Below, in pieces: positions 12,297 to 62,908 of a stretch of DNA of 64,000 nt. The notes under the pieces were generated by a model, which saw only the letters and a program-made list of their open reading frames with translations, was not told the origin of the DNA and made no database searches. The DNA is from Asaia bogorensis (lineage in GTDB: Bacteria; Pseudomonadota; Alphaproteobacteria; Acetobacterales; Acetobacteraceae), in contig CALQTN020000004.1 in assembly GCA_943333505.2 (NCBI GenBank), positions 1-64,000 on the forward strand, written 5' to 3'. Position 1 is the stretch's first letter. The number at the start of each line of letters is the position of its first letter. The translations under genes and the position numbers were made by a program.

Positions 12297-12467
12297 ATGC
12301 GCATTTTCAATGTCGCGATCGTTGCGACGATCGCTGTTCTCGTGCTGACTGACCAGGCTTGTGCCGGACAGGCGATCGAGGTGCCAGAACCTGCCTCGTT
12401 TGCGCTGTTGGCCATTGGTGCCGGCGGGGTAGTGCTGGCGAGGCTGCGTCGCAAAAACAAGAAATAG
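12297..12467 (+). CDS. Minimal PEP-CTERM protein 1 (56 aa)
   Basis: A 56-residue protein consisting of a signal peptide and a PEP-CTERM sorting signal. The first 23 residues end in an Ala-Cys-Ala signal-peptidase site (VLVLTDQACA). Five residues (GQAIE) follow, then VPEPASFALLAIGAGGVVLA, which combines the VPEP motif and a short membrane helix, then a basic tail (RLRRKNKK). Exosortases cut such proteins at the PEP motif, so almost nothing would remain as a mature chain. GGAGGG precedes the ATG. It is the first gene after the sigma-54-type promoter and is followed by two paralogues. No exosortase gene is in this window. Confidence 0.85.
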   Translation: MRIFNVAIVATIAVLVLTDQACAGQAIEVPEPASFALLAIGAGGVVLARLRRKNKK

Positions 12468-12543: not shown

Positions 12544-12708
12544 ATGCGCCTTATTAATCTCATCACCAGCGCGGCTCTCGCCCTCGTCGCAACGACCGGA
12601 TTGGCGTTTGCCAATCAACCCATCAACGTTCCGGAACCAGCCTCGCTGGCGCTGCTCGCAATCGGCGCCGGCGGGGTAATCCTCGCGAAGCTGCGATCCA
12701 GAAAATAG
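12544..12708 (+). CDS. Minimal PEP-CTERM protein 2 (54 aa)
   Basis: Second of three tandem paralogues. The 54 residues have the same build: a 23-residue signal peptide ending GLAFA, a five-residue linker (NQPIN), VPEPASLALLAIGAGG as sorting motif and start of the helix, and a basic end (KLRSRK). GGGAAG sits just upstream of the ATG. It lies 76 bases after gene 1 and 41 before gene 3, with no promoter of its own that I can see, so it is probably read from the sigma-54-type promoter. It is missed by length cut-offs common in gene finding. Confidence 0.82.
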   Translation: MRLINLITSAALALVATTGLAFANQPINVPEPASLALLAIGAGGVILAKLRSRK

Positions 12709-12749: not shown

Positions 12750-12914
12750 ATGCGTTTAGTCGATCTTGTCGCGAGCGCTGCCCTTGCCGTTGTTGCAATG
12801 ACAGGTGCCGCCTACGCTGATACGTCGCAGGCGGTGCCAGAACCCGCGTCGCTGGCGCTGCTCGCCATTGGCGCGGGCGGGGTGATCCTCGCGAAGCTCC
12901 GCCGGCGGAAATAA
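12750..12914 (+). CDS. Minimal PEP-CTERM protein 3 (54 aa)
   Basis: Third paralogue, 54 residues: a 23-residue signal peptide ending GAAYA, a linker DTSQA, then VPEPASLALLAIGAGG and the basic tail KLRRRK. Two adjacent ATG codons (12747 and 12750) follow GGAGG. I take the second because it gives the better spacing (six bases) and the same length as paralogue 2. The sorting-signal half is almost identical to paralogue 2, while the five linker residues differ completely, so selection seems to act on the targeting parts. The gene ends 25 bases before the convergent serine hydrolase gene. Confidence 0.82.
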   Translation: MRLVDLVASAALAVVAMTGAAYADTSQAVPEPASLALLAIGAGGVILAKLRRRK

Positions 12915-15189: not shown

Positions 15190-15296
15190 CTAGATCATCA
15201 TCGTTCAATCGGCTTCGATTGGACGGATAAATATTATTTTAAAATCAAATCTCTAGATCGCGTCTTATGAACCAACTGCAACGGATCACGCGCTAG
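15190..15296. repeat. CTAG-ended 107-bp repeat, copy A
   Basis: Begins and ends with CTAG. It shares GTTCAATCGGCTTCGATTGG and the CGGATAAA segment with copy B (57449-57556), and on the other strand with copy C (33333-33440). The terminal CTAG gives the TAG stop of the leftward lipoprotein gene. The right arm of its second hairpin is eroded (TATTATT instead of GATGATC). Confidence 0.85.
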
Positions 15297-15658
15297 CTGC
15301 ACGCGTTGCCGCGGAACGAATATCCGAACACCTTGCCGGCAACGATCTCAAACGTCGTCTCGCAACTGCGCTCGATCGCCTGGGGTGGCAGGCCGGGCCC
15401 ATAGCCGAAGCCATAGCGATAGGGGCTGAACGGCGTGTAGCCTGGCACGAAATCGACCCGGCGTTCGATATAGGCGAGGAAGCGCCGGCCATCGCTTTCG
15501 AACTGACGGCTCGGCACCCCGAACGCGCGCACCAGATCGGCCTCGGCTTGGCCGATGAAACTCCCCAATTGGGCTTCGCGCTCGGCACGCAGATCGGCAA
15601 GGCTTACACACGCCGCAAGCAGCGGCAGTGCCATCAGCAGGATCCAGAAACGACGCAT
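15293..15658 (-). CDS. Small outer-membrane-type lipoprotein
   Basis: A 121-residue predicted lipoprotein. The N-terminus MRRFWILLMALPLLAACVS has a lipobox LAAC with Cys17, so the mature protein should be lipid-anchored, probably in the outer membrane. The body has QAEADLVRAFGVPSRQFESD followed by a region rich in Tyr, Gly and Pro (FSPYRYGFGYGPGLPP), and ends with a conserved-looking FEIVAGKVFGYSFRGNAC. The start at 15658 is preferred because GGAG lies six bases upstream. Its stop codon comes from repeat copy A. It follows epmA after 22 bases, probably in the same operon. The function is unknown. Confidence 0.75.
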   Translation of the reverse strand: MRRFWILLMALPLLAACVSLADLRAEREAQLGSFIGQAEADLVRAFGVPSRQFESDGRRFLAYIERRVDFVPGYTPFSPYRYGFGYGPGLPPQAIERSCETTFEIVAGKVFGYSFRGNACS

Positions 15659-15680
15659 CTTGCTCTCCATCGTGGCGGCA

Positions 15681-16673
15681 TCACGGTAACCATAGCACAT
15701 CGTCGATCCGGTCCACCCCGGCGGCCAGCATCGCCAGCCTGTCGAACCCAAGCGCAATTCCAGCGCATGGCGGTAAGCCCAGGGTGAGGGCGGCCAGAAA
15801 ATCCTCATCCATGTCCCAATCCGGCCCACCATACAGCGCGTGGCGGCGGGCGCGGTCGATCGCGAAGCGGGCGCGCTGTTCCACCGGATCGGTGAGTTCG
15901 ACGAAGGCGTTGGCGAGTTCCATCCCGCCCGCGAATAATTCGAAGCGTTCGGCGACCCGTGGATCGGCTGGATCGCGGCGGGCGAGGGCAGCTTGTGCTG
16001 CTGGCCAATGGGTTAGGAAGGTCGGGTGGCGCTGTCCGATCGCCGGTTCGACCCGATCGAGCAGCAGGCGGAAAAACAAATCCTCCCAATCCTCGCCATC
16101 ACGCAGCCGCACCCCGGCCTCACGCGCCAGGGCCGCCGCATCGTCGGCGGTTCCCAACACATCGGCGCCAACGTACCGGGTGAAGGCATCGGCCACCGTC
16201 AACCGTTCGAACCGGCTGAGATCGATCGCCATACCCCGGCAGACCAGATGTTGCGGCAGCACCGCGCGCAGCAGCGCTTCGGTCTCATCCATCAGATCAA
16301 TAAGCGTCCCATCCGGGCGATACCATTCCAGCAGGGTGAATTCGGCGGAATGGGTGTCGGATGCCTCGTTGTTGCGCCACACCCGGGCGAGCTGGAAAAT
16401 TCGCCCGGCGCCGGCGGCGAGCAGTTTCTTCATCGCGAATTCGGGCGAGGTATGCAGCCAAAGGTCCCGCCCGCCACCTTGCGGATAAGTCTGGTGGGTG
16501 CGGAAGGTGGCGATGTGGACGTCCTCGCCCGGTGCTGCCACCGCGTAAGGCGTTTCAACCTCGAGATAGTCGCGATCGGCGAAAAACCGCCGCGTGTCGG
16601 CCGCCAGCCGAGCCCGTGCCCGCAAGGCAGGCAGCCGGGCGGACAGGCTGTCGGGGTGCCAGGGCGGGATCAT
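15681..16673 (-). CDS. epmA: EF-P--(R)-beta-lysine ligase (EpmA/PoxA/GenX)
   Basis: A 330-residue class II lysyl-tRNA-synthetase-like enzyme that attaches beta-lysine to elongation factor P, in line with the 325 residues of the E. coli enzyme. It lacks the tRNA anticodon-binding domain. Motif 2 is visible as FQLARVWRNNEASDTHSAEF, and motif 3 as GIALGFDRLAML near the C-terminus, with the substrate-pocket segment FAGGMELANAFVEL before it. The ATG at 16673 overlaps the stop of the upstream PhzF-like gene (ATGA). No efp or epmB (the beta-lysine-forming aminomutase) lies in this window. The assignment from motifs and length is strong. Confidence 0.9.
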   Translation of the reverse strand: MIPPWHPDSLSARLPALRARARLAADTRRFFADRDYLEVETPYAVAAPGEDVHIATFRTHQTYPQGGGRDLWLHTSPEFAMKKLLAAGAGRIFQLARVWRNNEASDTHSAEFTLLEWYRPDGTLIDLMDETEALLRAVLPQHLVCRGMAIDLSRFERLTVADAFTRYVGADVLGTADDAAALAREAGVRLRDGEDWEDLFFRLLLDRVEPAIGQRHPTFLTHWPAAQAALARRDPADPRVAERFELFAGGMELANAFVELTDPVEQRARFAIDRARRHALYGGPDWDMDEDFLAALTLGLPPCAGIALGFDRLAMLAAGVDRIDDVLWLP

Positions 16674-28129: not shown

Positions 28130-28136
28130 GGAAGAT

Positions 28137-28184
28137 GTTCTTTTTGTGAACAAAAAGAACCAAAAAAACTTTTTATTACTTTGC
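28137..28184. repeat. 24-nt GTTC...GAAC palindrome plus poly-A/T run, copy 1
   Basis: A palindrome with arms GTTCTTTTTGT and ACAAAAAGAAC (28137-28160) is followed by CAAAAAAACTTTTTATTAC. As RNA it forms a hairpin followed by T-rich sequence, so it can serve as terminator of the peptide transporter operon. The same unit occurs at 47182 and 62627 in the opposite orientation. Confidence 0.8.
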
Positions 28185-33332: not shown

Positions 33333-33440
33333 CGAGAGTGTGATGACCGCTGATACGGGCGGTCGTCACGCTCTCGGGTCTTGTGTTTACGATCACCTTT
33401 ATCCGTCCAATCGAAGCCGATTGAACGAATGATGATTTAG
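33333..33440. repeat. CTAG-ended 108-bp repeat, copy C (chimeric)
   Basis: The left half folds as GAGAGTGTGATGACCGC with GCGGTCGTCACGCTCTC (two G-U pairs) and resembles copies D and E. The right half is the reverse complement of the GTTCAATCGGCTTCGATTGG module of copies A and B. Its right end supplies the TAA stop of the leftward gene at 33437. It fills the gap between two convergent genes. Confidence 0.85.
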
Positions 33441-34360
33441 CCGAAGGCGGGCACCGCGCATGCCTCGACAATTGCCACCACCCGGGCGGTTTCCGCGGCA
33501 TTGAGGCTCCGCTGCGGTCGCGCCATGGTGTTGGTGCCGATAATCCCGAGATGGCGCATCGCAGTCTTGAACCCGCCAACCCCGGAAGCCCCGGCGCTGG
33601 TCCGCGGCGTGCCCTGCCAGACGATTTCGAACAGGTGGCATAACCGGGTCTGCTCGGCCTTTGCCGCCGCCCAGTCGCCACGTTGCGCCGCGTCCCACAG
33701 GCGCACGTAGCCGGCCGGATCAACATTGCCGAGCCCCGGCACCACACCATGCGCTCCCATTGCCAGCATGCTGTCGACGACAATCTCAGACCCGGTCATC
33801 AACGGGATATCAGGCCGATCCGCCAGATCGTTCAGCACGAAGCGGAACCCGCCATCATCGCCGCTGCTATCTTTCAGCCCGTCGATGATGCCCTCGCGCG
33901 CCAGATCGACCACGGTTGCGCGATCGAGTTTGGTGTGGACGCAGACCGGGATGTCGTAGGCGATCACCGGCATTTGCGCCGCATCTTTGACATAGCGGAA
34001 ATGATCGACGATCTCGGGCATCGAGGTGCGGGTGTAGAACGGCGCGGTGACCACCACGGCATCGGCGCCGGCATCTTTCGCCGCGCGCGCATGCCCGATC
34101 ATCCGGTCGGTGGCCGGATCGATGACGCCTGCCAGCACCGGCAACCGGCCTGCGGAGATCTTGACCGAGTGTTCGACGATACGCCGCCTGGTCGCCTCGT
34201 CATGGAAAACCACTTCCGATGTCGAGCCGAGCACGAACAGTCCGTGCACACCGCCTGCGATGAGATGTTCGAGCACCCGGGTGTAGCTCGTCCAATCCAC
34301 CGCGAAGTCGTTGGTCAGCGGCACGACGACGGGCGGGATGACCCCATGAAATTGCGGCAT
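33437..34360 (-). CDS. Dihydrodipicolinate synthase/N-acetylneuraminate lyase family protein
   Basis: A 307-residue TIM-barrel class I aldolase. The substrate-carboxylate loop is GSTSEVVFH (the GTTGE position of DapA), the catalytic tyrosine region is PVIAYDIPV, and the Schiff-base lysine is in GLKDSSGDDGG. The changed loop suggests that it is not the housekeeping DapA but an aldolase or dehydratase on another 2-oxo acid. AGGA lies ten bases before the ATG at 34360. Its stop codon lies inside repeat copy C. It is divergent from the Gld-type ABC operon. Confidence 0.85.
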   Translation of the reverse strand: MPQFHGVIPPVVVPLTNDFAVDWTSYTRVLEHLIAGGVHGLFVLGSTSEVVFHDEATRRRIVEHSVKISAGRLPVLAGVIDPATDRMIGHARAAKDAGADAVVVTAPFYTRTSMPEIVDHFRYVKDAAQMPVIAYDIPVCVHTKLDRATVVDLAREGIIDGLKDSSGDDGGFRFVLNDLADRPDIPLMTGSEIVVDSMLAMGAHGVVPGLGNVDPAGYVRLWDAAQRGDWAAAKAEQTRLCHLFEIVWQGTPRTSAGASGVGGFKTAMRHLGIIGTNTMARPQRSLNAAETARVVAIVEACAVPAFG

Positions 34361-37873: not shown

Positions 37874-38895
37874 GGGCGCTTCTGCTCGCCGCGATCGGGG
37901 CCATCGTGCTGGCCGGCGGATGGTATTTCGGTCCTGGCGCCAATCAGAACAGCCGCGTCGTGGTCGCCGCGGGGGCACTGGTGTTCCCCGAACTCGCCGG
38001 CAAACTGCAAACTGCGGCCACCATCGAAATCACCAACAAGGGCAAAACCCTGCGCATTATGCGTGGGCCGGAGTTCTGGGGCTTGGCAGATCGCAATGGC
38101 TACAAGGTCCAGCAGGACAAATTGCGGGAGATGCTGACCGGCCTCACCGAGTTGCGCATCAGCGAACTGCGCACCTCCGATCCTACCCAATACGACCGCC
38201 TCGGGGTCGGCGATCCGGCCGATGCCAATTCGACGGCCAATCTGCTGCGCGTGCTCGATGCCAGCGGCAAGCCGATCGCAACCCTGATCACAGGCCACCG
38301 CAGGGTCCGCACCGCCGGCAATCTGCCGGAGACCCTCTATATTCGTCGCCCAGGCGAGGCGCAGTCCTGGCTCGCTGAAGGTCGGGTCCAGGTCGATGCC
38401 GATCCGCAGCTGTGGTTCGAACGCGATATCGTCAACATTCCGCTCGATCGGGTGGCGAGCGTTGTGTCCCGCCGCGGCGAGGCGGTGCTGAACTTCGCGA
38501 AAATCGATGGCAAGCCGGCACTGACCCAAATGATCGAGCATCCCCCGCTCGATGATTACCGCATGGAAGACGTGTTTCGTGCGCTCGGCCAATTGACCCT
38601 CACCGATGTGAGCGAAGCGGCCAAGGCGCCGGGGGAGAAAGTCGGCGAGGCAGTCTACACCTTGACCGATGGGGTGCGGATCACCGTCAGTGTTGCGCGG
38701 GCTGATAAGGATGTCTGGGTGCAGCTTGCGGCCGCTGGTGACGGCGACGCCGCCAAGCCGGCCGCCGCCTTGCAGGCGGGTTTCGTCGGCTGGGCGTTCC
38801 AGCTTGGGGCCTGGAAGGAGAAAGCCTTCCTGCCGGTGATGGATGATCTCAAAGCCGACGAGCCAGCCAAACCGGCGGCCAAACCAACCGAATGA
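37870..38895 (+). CDS. DUF4340 domain protein
   Basis: A 341-residue protein with an N-terminal signal anchor (MRALLLAAIGAIVLAGGWYF) and a periplasmic beta-rich part: ELAGKLQTAATIEITNKGKT, then LRIMRGPEFWGLADRNGYKV, and WFERDIVNIPLDRVASV. DUF4340 proteins regularly follow GldG-like genes and probably form part of the same complex. The C-terminal tail is Lys/Ala/Pro-rich and may be flexible. Start and stop both overlap neighbours (ATGA), which ties it to the ABC system and to the Nudix gene. Confidence 0.83.
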   Translation: MRALLLAAIGAIVLAGGWYFGPGANQNSRVVVAAGALVFPELAGKLQTAATIEITNKGKTLRIMRGPEFWGLADRNGYKVQQDKLREMLTGLTELRISELRTSDPTQYDRLGVGDPADANSTANLLRVLDASGKPIATLITGHRRVRTAGNLPETLYIRRPGEAQSWLAEGRVQVDADPQLWFERDIVNIPLDRVASVVSRRGEAVLNFAKIDGKPALTQMIEHPPLDDYRMEDVFRALGQLTLTDVSEAAKAPGEKVGEAVYTLTDGVRITVSVARADKDVWVQLAAAGDGDAAKPAAALQAGFVGWAFQLGAWKEKAFLPVMDDLKADEPAKPAAKPTE

Positions 38896-39332
38896 GCCGC
38901 GAATATCCTGCCCGGCCGATTGTTGGCGTAGGCATTGTGGTCTTGCGGCCAGGACCCGATGTGCTGCTGGTCAGGCGCGGTAAAGCGCCTGATATCGGGC
39001 GTTGGGCGTTACCCGGCGGCGCGCAGGATGTCGGCGAGACCGCTGAGGCTGGGGCGAGGCGGGAATTATTCGAAGAATGCGGCTTGGTGGTGGAGCGTTT
39101 ACAGCTCGTGACCAATGTCGATAGCATTCGCTACGATGCCGATGGCCGGGTGCAGTACCACTACACGATCCTGGATTTCGCCGGGCTGTGGCAAGGCGAC
39201 GCGGCACGCCATGGCGATGATGTCGATGCGGTGGAATGGGCGCCGGTCGCAGATTTGGCGCCCTATGGGCTCTGGCAGGAAGCCCATAGGGTTATAGCAT
39301 TAGCGGTCCGGCAGTTGGGTTTGGATATTTAG
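38892..39332 (+). CDS. Nudix hydrolase
   Basis: A 146-residue Nudix protein. The box runs from Gly43 to Leu65 with the pattern G-x5-E-x7-RE-x2-EE-x-GL (Glu49, Arg57, Glu58, Glu61, Glu62), so metal and diphosphate binding should be intact. It hydrolyses a nucleoside diphosphate linked to another group, and is of the ADP-ribose/NADH or 8-oxo-dGTP general type. It is the last gene of the Gld-type operon, with which it overlaps. Its TAG stop (39330-39332) is the first part of repeat copy D, whose hairpin probably ends transcription. Confidence 0.88.
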   Translation: MSREYPARPIVGVGIVVLRPGPDVLLVRRGKAPDIGRWALPGGAQDVGETAEAGARRELFEECGLVVERLQLVTNVDSIRYDADGRVQYHYTILDFAGLWQGDAARHGDDVDAVEWAPVADLAPYGLWQEAHRVIALAVRQLGLDI

Positions 39333-47157: not shown

Positions 47158-47208
47158 ACAAAGTATCAAAAAGTTTTTTTGGTTCTTTTTATTGACAAAA
47201 AGAACGCC
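47158..47208. repeat. 24-nt GTTC...GAAC palindrome plus poly-A/T run, copy 2
   Basis: AAAAAGTTTTTTTGGTTC leads into the palindrome at 47182-47205 (outer nine pairs intact). It lies between the convergent aminotransferase and esterase genes and can act as a terminator for either. Confidence 0.8.
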
Positions 47209-47221
47209 TTGCCGTCGGCCT

Positions 47222-48866: not shown

Positions 48867-49718
48867 TCAGACCCCGTGTGCCTTGAGCCAGGCCAGGCAA
48901 CGCTTGAAGCCATCGGCGGCGGCCTCGGCATTATAGCTCGGCCGGTAATCGGCGTGGAACGCGTGGCCGGCTTCGGGGTAGACCACGATTTCCACCATCG
49001 CCCCACCGGCCTTTGCCTTGGCTGCGGCTGCGTTCACGTCATCGACCTTGATCCCACCATCCTTGGCACCGTAAAGCCCGAGCAACGGCACTTTCAGTGA
49101 ACCCGCGAGATCCATGACCGATTTTGGCTGGATGTCGCTCGCCGGTGTCATGATATGGCCATACCAGGCGACTGCCGCCTTCACTTTTGGGTTGTGGATG
49201 GCATAGAGCCAAGTCGTGCGCCCACCACGGCAGAAGCCGGTCACACCCACGCGATTGGCATCCCCCTTATTCGCGCCAGCCCAGGCCAGCAGCGCATCAG
49301 TATCGGCCATCAGCGTCGCATCGGGGGACTTCAGCACGAACTCACGAAAGATCGTCGCTCCATCGGTGAGCTTCGAAATATCGCCGAGACGGGCATAAAC
49401 CTCGACAACCACCGCCATGTAGCCAACTTTGGCAAAGCGCCGGCAGGTGTCTTTGAGGTATTCATGGACGCCGAAAATTTCTTCGTTCACGATCACGATC
49501 GGGAACGGTCCCGGTCCGGCTGGGCGCGCGTAATAGCCTGGAAGGCTGCCACCGGTGACCGGTAGCATGAATTCACCAGTTTCCAGCCCCGTGGCATCGG
49601 TTTGGATCGCCTGTGCTTCGACCCTGGTGGTCGCAAGCGTCAACCCCGAGATAAGTGATGTCATGAAAAACCCGCGCCGGGCGAGCGGGAAATGGGTCAG
49701 GCCTTGCATGTCGTCCAT
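48867..49718 (-). CDS. Dienelactone hydrolase family protein, exported
   Basis: A 283-residue alpha/beta hydrolase with a cysteine nucleophile. The N-terminus LARRGFFMTSLISGLTLATT is a twin-arginine-like or Sec signal peptide ending near VEAQA. The catalytic set appears as NEEIFG (Glu80), GFCRGG (Cys163), a late aspartate in GAKDGGI and the histidine in AGHAFH. It may open lactone rings in the periplasm. I start at the ATG at 49718, after GGGGA. The reading frame stays open upstream to 49925, including an oddly protein-like stretch, but it contains a strong hairpin and is not annotated as coding. Confidence 0.85.
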   Translation of the reverse strand: MDDMQGLTHFPLARRGFFMTSLISGLTLATTRVEAQAIQTDATGLETGEFMLPVTGGSLPGYYARPAGPGPFPIVIVNEEIFGVHEYLKDTCRRFAKVGYMAVVVEVYARLGDISKLTDGATIFREFVLKSPDATLMADTDALLAWAGANKGDANRVGVTGFCRGGRTTWLYAIHNPKVKAAVAWYGHIMTPASDIQPKSVMDLAGSLKVPLLGLYGAKDGGIKVDDVNAAAAKAKAGGAMVEIVVYPEAGHAFHADYRPSYNAEAAADGFKRCLAWLKAHGV

Positions 49719-51368: not shown

Positions 51369-51935
51369 ATGCGCGTATACCTTGCCGGCCCCGACGTATT
51401 CCTTCCGGATCCGGTGGCTCGCGGGGCCACGCTCAAGCAGATTTGCGCCAGGTTCGGGTTGCGTGGCGTGTTTCCGCTCGATGACCTCGATGGCGGCGAT
51501 CCGCCGGAACTCGCAGCACTCGATCTTGCTTTTCGGATTGCGCGTCGCAACGAACGCCACATCGCCGCCTGCGATGCGCTGATCGCCAATCTGACGCCGT
51601 TTCGCGGCCCCAGCGCCGATGTTGGGACAGTCTATGAGCTCGGGTTCATGCGCGGGCTTGCCCGTCCGGTGTTTGGCTGGTCGAACGTCACCACGCAATT
51701 TGCTGCCCGCACCCGCGTCTTTGTCGGCGCTGATGGCTTAACCGACCAGGCGGGCATGCTGATCGAGGATTTCGGGATTGCCGATAATCTGATGATTGAA
51801 GGTGGCATTGCTGCGTCTGGTGGGGCATTTTTCGCCGGCGATGTTTCGCCCGTTTCGGTTTGGCAGGACCTGAGTGTGTTCGAAGCTGCAGTGGCCGCCA
51901 CGGCGCGGCTATTGGCACAAAAATCGCTTATTTAG
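51369..51935 (+). CDS. Nucleoside 2-deoxyribosyltransferase
   Basis: A 188-residue enzyme that moves 2-deoxyribose between bases. The start MRVYLAGPDVFLPDP holds the ribose-phosphate-binding loop, and NLTPFRGPSADVGTVYELGF carries the catalytic glutamate and substrate-binding aspartate. It is a cytoplasmic nucleotide-salvage or nucleotide-pool protein. GAAGG is seven bases before the ATG. Its TAG stop (51933-51935) is part of repeat copy E. Confidence 0.87.
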   Translation: MRVYLAGPDVFLPDPVARGATLKQICARFGLRGVFPLDDLDGGDPPELAALDLAFRIARRNERHIAACDALIANLTPFRGPSADVGTVYELGFMRGLARPVFGWSNVTTQFAARTRVFVGADGLTDQAGMLIEDFGIADNLMIEGGIAASGGAFFAGDVSPVSVWQDLSVFEAAVAATARLLAQKSLI

Positions 51936-52037
51936 AATATGATGACCGCTGATAGGCGCGGTCCTCATATTCTAACTGTTTGTTTGGTCGTGTGGTCAGA
52001 CCTTCGTGTGATCTCACCTGCGGTCGTCACGCTCTAA
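51932..52037. repeat. CTAG-like-ended 106-bp repeat, copy E
   Basis: It supplies the stop codons of both flanking convergent genes (51933-51935 and 52034-52036). The hairpin AGAATATGATGACCGC with GCGGTCCTCATATTCT (51934-51949, 51958-51973) has three base pairs changed on both sides relative to copy D and one mismatch. The rest is close to copy D. Confidence 0.88.
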
Positions 52038-53341
52038 TGGGGCAAGCTGACCCCTTCAACTGGAATGCCAACCGGGCCCGCCCGCCGGTCCCGCAGCATA
52101 CGGCTGACATCGTCGAGCCGGCCGCTCATCACATAGGCTTTGAGCAGGGTGAAGTCGACCAGATCGCGCTGCGCCCGGCTGCCGCCAATACGTTCATGGT
52201 CGGCGAAGACCGGCTCGATCGCGGCGATCGCGCCATCATAGTCCTGACGGTTGAAGGCTGCGAAACCCTTCGCGAGCGCCGGCACCAGCGGGCCGGACGG
52301 CAGGCGGCCGTTGCTTTCGAGCTCCGCCATATCGCGCAGCCGTGCCTCGAGCGCCGCACCATCGCCGGTCACTGCGTCGGCAAGCGCAATATGGGTATCG
52401 GCATAGGCAATCGCGGCGCGCGGGAACATCTTATGGGCGAAATCATGCAACGCCTGCCAGCGCGCCGGATCGCGCGGTGCGCCGGCGAGTTCGGCCCGCC
52501 ACAGGAAGGACACCGCGTCCACCATCGGGATCAACGGGAAACCACCCTTGGCGACCGGGGGCGCAAAGGCGGTCTGATAGAGCCTGAAGGCTTCGTCCGC
52601 GTTGCCGGCTTCAAGCTCGGTTAGCGCCAGATGCCAGCTGAGATGGCCGTGAAGGGGGCCATCAGGCGAATAGGTCTTGAGCCATTCAGACAAATAGGCC
52701 CGCGCGGCGTCAGGTTCGCCGTCCTCGTAATGGACATGGGCGCGGATATGGGTGGCGTTGGCGTTGCGCGGGTTCTGTTCAACGGCGCGTTCGATCTTGG
52801 CGCGGGCGGCATCACGCTGCCCGGTCTCCACCAGCGCGAAGGCGTGCTGGGCGTTGAACCACCAGTCATCGCCAAAGGCATCGGCGAGGCTGTCGAGCAG
52901 CGCAACCTGTTCAACCTCGCGCCCCGGCCGGCCGGAAAACCCGATCAGGCCAAACACCGAGGAACACGGGCTCAGCACGATCGCGTCACGCGGCCAGTCA
53001 CGCAGATGCGCCTTCGCAGCCGCGGTTGCCGCATCCGGCGGACCTGACAGCAACAGGCCGTGGAACGCCATATGGCTCGCCTCACGCCCGGAAATCCCGC
53101 CCGCCACAGCCTGCCCGGCCGCGAAGGTCGCCCGCGCGCCGACCGGATCGCTGCCGACCTGCTGTACCCGCGCCTTGCCTGCATAGGCAAGCGCAAAGCC
53201 CGGATCGGCGGCAATCGCCAAATCAAACGCCGCGCCTGGGCCGGGGTTGGCCGACAGCACCAGATCGCAGGCCTCGACATAGGCGTCACGGGCGGTGGCC
53301 GATTGGGTGGACAGGTCGAGACCATAGCGATCGGTGAGCAT
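52034..53341 (-). CDS. TPR protein of the TTC38-like family
   Basis: A 435-residue soluble protein made of TPR-like helices: AAFDLAIAADPGFALAYAGKA and the later AQHAFALVETGQRDAARAKI are typical repeats, followed by ATHIRAHVHYEDGEPDAARA and WHLALTELEAGNADEAFRLY. The arrangement matches bacterial homologues of tetratricopeptide repeat protein 38. No enzymatic function is known. The ATG at 53341 has AAGGAG eleven bases upstream; the frame continues upstream but overlaps the divergent MOSC promoter. Its TAG stop is supplied by repeat copy E. Confidence 0.83.
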   Translation of the reverse strand: MLTDRYGLDLSTQSATARDAYVEACDLVLSANPGPGAAFDLAIAADPGFALAYAGKARVQQVGSDPVGARATFAAGQAVAGGISGREASHMAFHGLLLSGPPDAATAAAKAHLRDWPRDAIVLSPCSSVFGLIGFSGRPGREVEQVALLDSLADAFGDDWWFNAQHAFALVETGQRDAARAKIERAVEQNPRNANATHIRAHVHYEDGEPDAARAYLSEWLKTYSPDGPLHGHLSWHLALTELEAGNADEAFRLYQTAFAPPVAKGGFPLIPMVDAVSFLWRAELAGAPRDPARWQALHDFAHKMFPRAAIAYADTHIALADAVTGDGAALEARLRDMAELESNGRLPSGPLVPALAKGFAAFNRQDYDGAIAAIEPVFADHERIGGSRAQRDLVDFTLLKAYVMSGRLDDVSRMLRDRRAGPVGIPVEGVSLPH

Positions 53342-57260: not shown

Positions 57261-57452
57261 ATGCTGAACGACGATGACCTGCCAATCATACAGCCGAAGC
57301 GGATGCAGCCGCCCGTGCTCGACCTGCTCGGCGTGGACGAACTGCGCGAGTACATCGCCGAGTTGCAGGCCGAGATCGGGCGTGTGGAGGCGGATATCGT
57401 GAAAAAACAGGCCCATCGCAGCGCTGCTGACGCATTTTTCAGAAAGCCCTAG
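57261..57452 (+). CDS. DUF1192 family protein
   Basis: A 63-residue protein: a short N-terminal strand-like LPIIQPKR, then LDLLGVDELREYIAELQAEI, a helix ending in a coiled-coil-like segment with VKKQAHRSAADAFF. This is the DUF1192 pattern, a small alphaproteobacterial family of unknown role. GGAGG precedes the ATG at 57261, which is better than an earlier ATG at 57207. It is divergent from TrcR. Its TAG stop (57450-57452) comes from repeat copy B. Confidence 0.85.
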   Translation: MLNDDDLPIIQPKRMQPPVLDLLGVDELREYIAELQAEIGRVEADIVKKQAHRSAADAFFRKP

Positions 57453-57556
57453 ATCATCATTCGTTCAATCGGCTTCGATTGGACGGATAAAGATGATCAT
57501 AAAAACAAGACTCTAGAACGTGTCAGCTGATTCAACTTCAACGGATCAAGCTCTAG
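57449..57556. repeat. CTAG-ended 108-bp repeat, copy B
   Basis: CTAG at both ends gives TAG stops to both convergent neighbours (57450-57452 and 57553-57555). It contains the small hairpin GTTCAATCG/CGATTGGAC inside outer arms GATCATC and GATGATC. It is the best preserved member of the A/B type. Confidence 0.88.
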
Positions 57557-58866
57557 AGTGTAGCGACCCAATGTGCCGCGGCGATCGCCAGGCTGGCTAA
57601 AACCAATGCCAGCGCGGTGAAATCCCGGTTCCAGACGGTGGTGACAGTGATCGGGTCGCTCTCCGACCAGCGTGCGGTGGCAATCGCGCTGGCCGACATC
57701 GGCGTCATCCCGACGCCTACCCCCCAGCCCAGCATACAGGCAAACGCCAACACCGATGGCGCTACCCCGAGCGCCTGCGGATCAGGCACGGCGGCCCCGA
57801 TCACCGCCACGATCGCAATCGGGTTCAACCCGACCAATCCGGTCGCCAGCAGCAGCACCGGCACCAGCAGCGGGATAGCCAGTGGCGGCAGCATCGTGAG
57901 CCAGGGCGCCATGCCGCCTGCCGGTAAAGCCATACCCAGCGCGACGCCGAGAAAGCCGCCCGCTGCCAACACGCCGGCCTCACCGCGAAACCCCGGCAGG
58001 CCGGCATGGAATTCCACCAGGCGCGACCAAACCCTGAAGCGGGTCTGCACCATGGCCCAGACCAGTGCCACCGCCGGCACTGATGCCGTGACCCCGGTTG
58101 ACAGCCCAACGCCGAAGATGTTCCCGACACCCCAGGACAATGCGCTCACCAACGCCACCAGCCCGACCGCCGCGACATGGATTGTCCAGCGTTCCCGGCT
58201 CGGCCGCGCGGTTTCGTCAACCACCGGCAAGCGCCCGTCGAGCCAGACGCCCATGGCCAGCATCAGCATGGCGACTGCAAACCCGGCCGGCAGCAGCGGC
58301 AGCAGGTTCGCACCGGGCACCGCCGCCGACACCACCGCGGTCATGATATTCAGCGGCGACCAGCAATTCATCGTGCCAAAGCCGCGATAGGCCGCCAGCA
58401 TCATCCGCCCGCGCGCCTTGGCATGGGCATCGCGCAGCATCGACCCGAGCAGATCGATCGCGCCATAGGACAGGATGATGCTGAACAGATGTCCACCCGC
58501 GCTCATCGCCAGATAGCGCCGGCCCGGCGGTTGACCGAGCAATTGCGCCCCGCAGCGCCTGATCACCACGCTATGCTGGGCGCATAGCCGGAGCGCGCCC
58601 AATGCCAGGAAGAACGCCGCATAGGCAGCCGCTCTGCGCCACGCCGCAACCCAGGCGGCCAGGGGATCGGGCGCGCAGGCCACGGCTATCGCCCCGCCGC
58701 ACAGCAGGACAATCAGCACCGCTTTGACCATCTGTCGCTGGCGCCCAAATTCCAGCGCCAGAAACAGAATGATCGCCATCCCTGCGGCTTCGCTTGCGCC
58801 GGGCAGATGGAACAATAAATCGCCCAGGCTGCCAGCCCAGGCGATCAAATAGACAAAACCGCTCAT
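57553..58866 (-). CDS. Uncharacterised multi-helix membrane protein
   Basis: A 437-residue inner-membrane protein with about ten to twelve helices. Conserved-looking loops are SAGGHLFSIILSYGAIDLLG, then AYRGFGTMNCWSPLNIMTAV, and near the end GWGVGVGMTPMSASAIATAR, where Gly/Ser/Asn-rich breaks inside helices resemble substrate sites of ion-transporter-superfamily proteins. I recognise no exact family; a transporter for an anion or organic acid is plausible. The stop codon is given by repeat copy B. It is divergent from the flavin reductase gene. Confidence 0.75.
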   Translation of the reverse strand: MSGFVYLIAWAGSLGDLLFHLPGASEAAGMAIILFLALEFGRQRQMVKAVLIVLLCGGAIAVACAPDPLAAWVAAWRRAAAYAAFFLALGALRLCAQHSVVIRRCGAQLLGQPPGRRYLAMSAGGHLFSIILSYGAIDLLGSMLRDAHAKARGRMMLAAYRGFGTMNCWSPLNIMTAVVSAAVPGANLLPLLPAGFAVAMLMLAMGVWLDGRLPVVDETARPSRERWTIHVAAVGLVALVSALSWGVGNIFGVGLSTGVTASVPAVALVWAMVQTRFRVWSRLVEFHAGLPGFRGEAGVLAAGGFLGVALGMALPAGGMAPWLTMLPPLAIPLLVPVLLLATGLVGLNPIAIVAVIGAAVPDPQALGVAPSVLAFACMLGWGVGVGMTPMSASAIATARWSESDPITVTTVWNRDFTALALVLASLAIAAAHWVATL

Positions 58867-62407: not shown

Positions 62408-62908
62408 GGTCAGACCCTGGTGTGGGTGCGCCGGCATGGATAGCGTTAATCGTGTGGATGCGGACGGATTGACGGGGGAGTAGCGTATTTTTTTAAAAAG
62501 TAAGGGCAAGGCAAATTTTTTCCAAACAGAAAGGCGCAACAAGGACGTCCGACCGCATTGCCGCTCGCTCCCGACCCTCCGCAACCTCAGCCCCCCCCTG
62601 GCAACAGAGTAGAAGAAAGTTTTTTGGTTCTTTTTGTTCACGCAAAGAACATGCTGGCTTGCCCCGACTGATAAAAAATACGGAAGACGTCCAATCCTGC
62701 CGCAAGTCACCCGAATGCTGCGCCGTGCTGTTCAGCTCGCCGGCGCACTTGCCGGACGTTGATTGCAGGCTTCAAATGCCCGGCAGCCTGGCATTGCGGG
62801 AAGATCCTCAAATCTGATTTGCGGGCGCCGTTCTGGGCGGGTGTGAAAAGGCAGGTGAACTAAGCGCGGTCTTCTTTGTCGGAAAGCACAGAGGATCGGG
62901 CCTTCCCG
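62408..62908. other. Intergenic region with palindromic repeat
   Basis: About 500 bases between the radC start and the unknown leftward gene, with no credible gene on either strand. It contains the third full copy of the 24-nt palindrome (62627-62650), an AT-rich part just upstream of radC (62485-62525) and otherwise ordinary GC-rich DNA. Confidence 0.7.
62609..62650. repeat. 24-nt GTTC...GAAC palindrome plus poly-A/T run, copy 3
   Basis: GAAAGTTTTTTGGTTC leads into the palindrome at 62627-62650, with one mismatched pair. Same orientation as copy 2. It lies upstream of radC, not at a gene end. Confidence 0.8.

Follow-up and report, generated by a model that had tools for sequence, protein, structure and literature searches.

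The repeat at 57449–57556 of the window (the whole 64,000-nt stretch that was analysed) and its relatives are very probably non-autonomous IS630/Tc1-mariner-type MITEs that insert into TA within YTAR, including stop codons that were already in place, and leave the encoded proteins unchanged. We observed empty sites in related genomes, a TA target within YTAR, unchanged protein lengths and an excess of gene stops lying exactly at the element ends. In the course of events that we propose, the element would insert into a TA, preferably within YTAR (CTAG, TTAG, CTAA or TTAA), and the TA would be duplicated. In this GC-rich and tightly packed genome, the YTAR sites at convergent gene ends would mostly be stop codons, and for that reason harmless landings would fall in stops. 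Through the G beside the TA at both ends, each TAA or TAG would become TAG, and both proteins would keep their length. An IS630-family transposase would mobilise the copies, and selection rather than targeting would lie behind their convergent bias.

The dispersed repeat, here called family I, is about 104 bases long and has about 110 copies in the genome; a 28-nt core pattern gave 108 matches with up to 3 mismatches in the 4.52-Mb draft genome, against 0 for a control pattern. As is expected of a MITE, it is short and non-coding, with many near-identical dispersed copies. Its consensus, TA-GATCATCATTCGTTCAATCGGCTTCGATTGGACGGATAAAGATGATCGTGAAAACAAGACTC-TA-GAGCGTGTCTGCTGATTCAACTTCAACGGATCACGCTC-TA, consists of two modules, A (62-nt core) and B (38-nt core), with TA at the boundaries of each. 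The copy under study and its neighbours comprise the following features.

57449–57556, plus strand: family I element, A+B composite (C-TA, 102-nt core, TA-G; 108 nt including the flanking bases; net insertion 104 nt)
57452–57513, plus strand: module A core, 62 nt, with a long hairpin GATCATCATTCGTTCAATCG-GCTT-CGATTGGACGGATAAAGATGATC plus a GTGAAAACAAGACTC-like tail
57516–57553, plus strand: module B core, 38 nt, of the type TA-GAGCGTG..CACGCTC-TA, with GAACGTG..CAAGCTC in this copy
57450–57451, no strand: left TA of the duplicated pair, which with the following element G forms the TAG stop of the plus-strand gene 57261–57452
57554–57555, no strand: right TA of the duplicated pair, which with element base C57553 forms the TAG stop of the minus-strand gene 57553–58866
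57261–57452, plus strand: gene with its stop at the left TA(G), encoding a 63-aa DUF1192 protein
57553–58866, minus strand: gene for a 437-aa protein with no Pfam hit, ending at the right TA(G)

For the 437-aa protein, the closest named relatives come from metagenome assemblies labelled Acetobacteraceae. Module A is also found by itself and as tandem arrays (period 64) whose units have a CTAG in common, as at G000:C33:49000-49186 (units at 49000, 49064 and 49128), C18:16063-16218 and C65:11714-11885; such common CTAG junctions are what repeated insertion into a terminal TA would produce. Outside the host genus, family I matches are scattered within the host's taxonomic family and mostly consist of module A alone.

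An earlier sequence-only reading had treated five elements of the window as one repeat. Three of them (15190, 33336 and 57449) do belong to family I, and the other two (39326 and 51929) form a distinct second family, family II. The four further elements are listed below.

15190–15296, plus strand: family I copy between tandem genes; its right TA lies within the stop of the minus-strand gene 15293–15700, whose G001 orthologue has the same last residue and TAA
33336–33440, minus strand: family I copy in which a GAGCGTGA.GACCG palindrome takes the place of the B part; the minus-strand gene 33437–34324 stops there with TAA, G004 orthologue 295/295 aa
39326–39433, no strand: family II element, TA-GAGCGTGATGACCG..CGGTCATCACGCTC-TA; stop of the plus-strand gene 38892–39332, G001 orthologue of equal length with TAG
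51929–52036, no strand: family II element; both convergent genes, 51414–51935 (plus) and 52034–53341 (minus), have their stops at its ends

The right part of the 33336 copy is family II palindrome sequence. Family II ends of the form TA-GAGCGTGATGACCG gave 306 matches in the genome, and their stop pattern is weaker (20/58 exact, 8 reading in). For the 51929 copy, the gene ending at 52034 has a G001 orthologue of 435/435 aa that ends CATTAA; the end of the partner gene is variable among relatives, and a clean empty site with a double stop was not found for this copy. In G001 (C43:18883-20174), the orthologues of this convergent pair stand about 1.3 kb apart, which suggests an extra insert there. 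A transposon beside family II on contig C41 was rejected as the family II parent, being a different IS630 nested in a family II copy: at L172 1313-2610 (G000:C41), an IS630 with the terminal inverted repeat ATACCAACCG sits in the internal TA. This is a second case of IS630 insertion at the TA of a repeat. Elsewhere in the window, three coding stretches of VPEPASLALLAIGAGG type (12381–12448, 12628–12695 and 12834–12901) resemble PEP-CTERM sorting signals.

A small codon-pair model, applied to the 1.26 Mb of sequence surrounding the copies, served for independent gene calling and yielded 1203 genes at 89% coding density. The stops at 15293, 39332, 51935, 52034, 57452 and 57553 all coincided with called gene ends, and so did the TAA that the 33336 copy had been said to provide at 33437. 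The called genes also agreed that four of the five window elements lie between convergent genes, from whose ends they are separated by −7 to +6 nt, the 15190 copy being the tandem exception. Genome-wide, the predicted excess of repeat ends at gene stops was borne out: among 96 gene 3' ends facing recognisable family I copy ends, 58 stopped exactly at the TA(G), 37 stopped before it and 1 read into the element. Exact stops thus made up 58/59 of the ends touching the element, compared with 1/3 under random frames (p = 8e-27). Three genomes of the same genus gave a similar distribution for 38 gene ends (20 exact, 17 before, 1 into the element). The description of the repeat as portable also holds; the copies are dispersed and are concentrated between convergent genes, a context found for 44/88 scored copies and for only 170/1135 gene pairs overall (15%; p = 3e-16).

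A repeat end that coincides with a gene stop is no evidence for a supplied stop or an edited C-terminus; that requires the empty site. At the empty site of 57449–57556 in G004 (L131), the flanking orthologues are convergent and overlap by 4 nt at one common TTAA, and their proteins of 63 and 437 aa are identical in length to those of the window. Four further double-sided empty sites, L042:16190 (G003, TTAA), L084:5784 (G004, CTAG), L033:9887 (G001, CTAA) and L081:9887 (G001 and G003, TTAA), likewise carry convergent stops overlapping by 4 nt, with protein lengths unchanged. In the reciprocal case, the copy is in G003, flanked by alaS and a nucleotidyltransferase gene; G001 has the empty site, a CTAG at which these genes overlap. 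In all, six copies have empty sites that consist of a single YTAR common to a convergent pair. Since these sites already carry overlapping stops with the same protein lengths, the stops are older than the element. For one-sided copies, 18/20 orthologues ended at the same last residue, against 9/10 for control genes far from copies. At L089:3265 the relatives stop with TGA at the same residue, so that the TAG there is no simple rebuilt TAR stop. The repeats neither trim nor extend proteins. The proposal that they change or shorten C-termini is therefore ruled out by orthologues that end at the same residue without a repeat, and the element is not the source of the translation stop either: the stop pre-existed, and only its third base was replaced by G.

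The target, written as outer base, TA and outer base, was CTAG in 19, TTAG in 11, CTAA in 9, TTAA in 9 and another sequence in 7 of 55 clean-ended copies. YTAR thus accounts for 48/55, and the seven copies with non-YTAR outer bases may reflect mutation, assembly or a looser target. Within a copy, the outer base on one side varies independently of that on the other while TA is constant, so TA alone is duplicated and CTAG is no fixed end. The notion of fixed CTAG ends was accordingly rejected: the TAG stops read from those ends are real, the ends themselves being YTAG, and among the window elements there are TTTAG ends at 39326 and 51929 and a CTAA at the right of 51929. With TA at both ends and six single-YTAR empty sites, the TA target and TA duplication of IS630/Tc1-mariner-type MITEs are both present. 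YTAR is at the same time the motif at which two convergent genes ending in TAA or TAG have a 4-nt overlap. Each end of the element has a G directly next to the TA, so that a target TAA or TAG is rebuilt as TAG on either side, and it is this rebuilding that makes the ends resemble supplied stops.

Whether the copies prefer stops or convergent gene ends was addressed by counting free YTAR sites in the regions fetched around copies, a scope that makes the ratios between site classes informative and the absolute occupancies too high. In convergent gaps, single-stop YTAR sites (25 insertions, 43 free) were used no more than non-stop YTAR sites lying no more than 40 nt past a convergent stop (9 insertions, 15 free; p = 1.0). 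Stop-codon targeting as such was rejected on this equality; the excess is located at convergent 3' ends, not at stops over neighbouring YTAR. Tandem stop YTAR sites held 14 insertions with 157 free, so convergent stop sites were favoured per free site with an odds ratio of 6.5 (p = 3.6e-7), and double-stop sites (9 insertions, 5 free) showed a further excess (odds ratio 3.1, p = 0.08). The simplest reading of the convergent bias is target availability together with the removal of copies that harm promoters or operons.

These site ratios, together with the strong folding of the element, could also be explained by ordinary YTAR insertion followed by positive selection, in which a copy separates overlapping convergent genes and serves as a bidirectional transcription insulator. 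We regard this as unlikely. Purifying selection against insertion into operons or promoters gives the same bias, and tandem stops near the next gene were used less (3/73 versus 6/47), a trend in the direction of purifying selection that is not significant. Moreover, no canonical terminator was found, and pneumococcal repeats and IS elements with the same enrichment between convergent genes have been read as tolerated there (in the relevant passages of PMC3049150). Still less do we favour the stronger proposal of an element adapted to convergent stops that overlap, with a preference for YTAR, the double-stop motif, G ends that are protein-neutral, hairpins that insulate and a benefit to the host that retains the copies.

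The sequence-only reading had proposed a portable double-ended terminator that lands close to the ends of genes, shortens their proteins and creates both stops and hairpin terminators. Exact stops at the element ends speak for it, as do strong hairpins on both strands (folding z-scores of −5.4 and −3.8 on the two strands of the 57449–57556 copy, and −7.1 for the consensus) and a module A stem that is preserved through paired changes between subfamilies. However, stem conservation would be equally expected if the hairpin serves mobility, and the sequences have a common ancestry. The translational part is refuted by the orthologues that share the end residue without a copy. In addition, almost no gene reads into an element, although two of three frames would do so after insertion into a coding end, and a stem followed by a U-tract, as in an intrinsic Rho-independent terminator, occurred 0 times in 57300–57700 on either strand. 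Taken as a whole, the proposal is very improbable. The element may terminate transcription. Membership in a known RNA family was rejected, Rfam giving two sub-threshold matches that are both far below the gathering scores. A third repeat, GTTCTTTTTGTGAACAAAAAGAAC...CTTTTT, lies at 28132–28183, 47159–47210 and 62613–62652 of the window, where it forms a hairpin with a T-run. It stands just past gene stops (28129, and 47222 on the minus strand), follows stops in relatives as well (L112, L229) and has more of the appearance of a genuine terminator repeat than family I.

Regarding the mobiliser, IS630-family genes are present in the genome, and the copy on contig C117 was assigned to IS630 by NCBIfam/Pfam. 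It has two overlapping ORFs and TA-flanked terminal inverted repeats with the ends TAGAGCATCATCGATCC.. and TAGAGCATTTTCCGATC.., and it adjoins a module A at a common CTAG. The ORF overlap of this transposase (L096/L171 211-1183, G000:C117) lies near an A8 run, typical of programmed frameshifting. Family I itself carries no transposase, and by sequence comparison its resemblance to IS630 would be limited to its ends. The left end of A and the right end of B match the C117 IS630 ends partially, at 14–15/22 positions beyond the TA (shuffle p <= 0.0005), and each other at 13/22 (p <= 0.001, a figure joint with the IS-end matches); the inner ends of the composite show no resemblance. The left end in the relatives, TAGAGCATCATCCGATC, is nearer still to the C117 element. 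In the relatives with the repeats no such IS630 copy was found, which makes the end matches evidence for the kind of mobiliser and no proof of its identity; the C117 IS630 may be a cousin rather than the mobiliser.

The YTAR target would also suit an IS5-type element with a 4-bp YTAR duplication, which we hold to be highly improbable because the outer bases differ within many copies (e.g., CTAG left, CTAA right), leaving only TA duplicated, and because the resident IS with similar ends is an IS630. REP/BIME-type palindromes moved by a RAYT (Y1) transposase have the high copy number, hairpins and modular tandem arrays in common with family I, but this reading was rejected as having next to no probability, given the clear TA duplication and empty sites and the result that PF01797 had no match in the 96% complete host genome G000 while the same search was positive in 5/14 control genomes.

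Family I is a new repeat family of the known IS630-type MITE kind, close in kind to RUP of Streptococcus pneumoniae. According to the relevant passages of PMC2229807, RUP is a 107-bp intergenic repeat of about 108–110 copies with TA targets and ends like those of IS630-Spn1, and those of PMC3049150 report its overrepresentation between convergent genes. Compared by description, the likeness extends to size, copy number, TA target, the proposed IS630 type of mobiliser and convergent bias, whereas the host of family I belongs to another phylum and family I consists of two TA-bounded modules in a GC-rich genome. ISY100 inserts into TA with TA duplication in vitro (PMC2170065), and IS630 does likewise, preferring the TA in CTAG (as PMC2170065 cites from Tenzen and Ohtsubo 1991); family I has the same insertion pattern and, unlike them, no transposase. 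Correia/NEMIS elements of Neisseria, as described in the review PMC2229807, are also short MITEs, of which many have hairpins and end in TA; their host is not a GC-rich alphaproteobacterium like the one studied here. REP/BIME systems with RAYT are comparable as many short intergenic palindromes in modular arrays; family I differs from them in its TA duplication and in a host genome in which the Y1 transposase was not found.

Overlapping YTAR stops as landing sites go unmentioned in the RUP passages of PMC2229807 and PMC3049150, and in the open-licence literature searched we did not find YTAR described as an overlapping double stop with a G that makes insertion protein-neutral on both strands. 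One fixed G and a simple rule for the target (TA in YTAR) are enough for insertion into a stop codon to leave the proteins of both strands unchanged, which gives a concrete reason for the build-up of IS630-type repeats at convergent gene ends without harm to proteins. Landing in overlapping stops can be predicted, and tested, for other IS630-type MITEs too, RUP among them.
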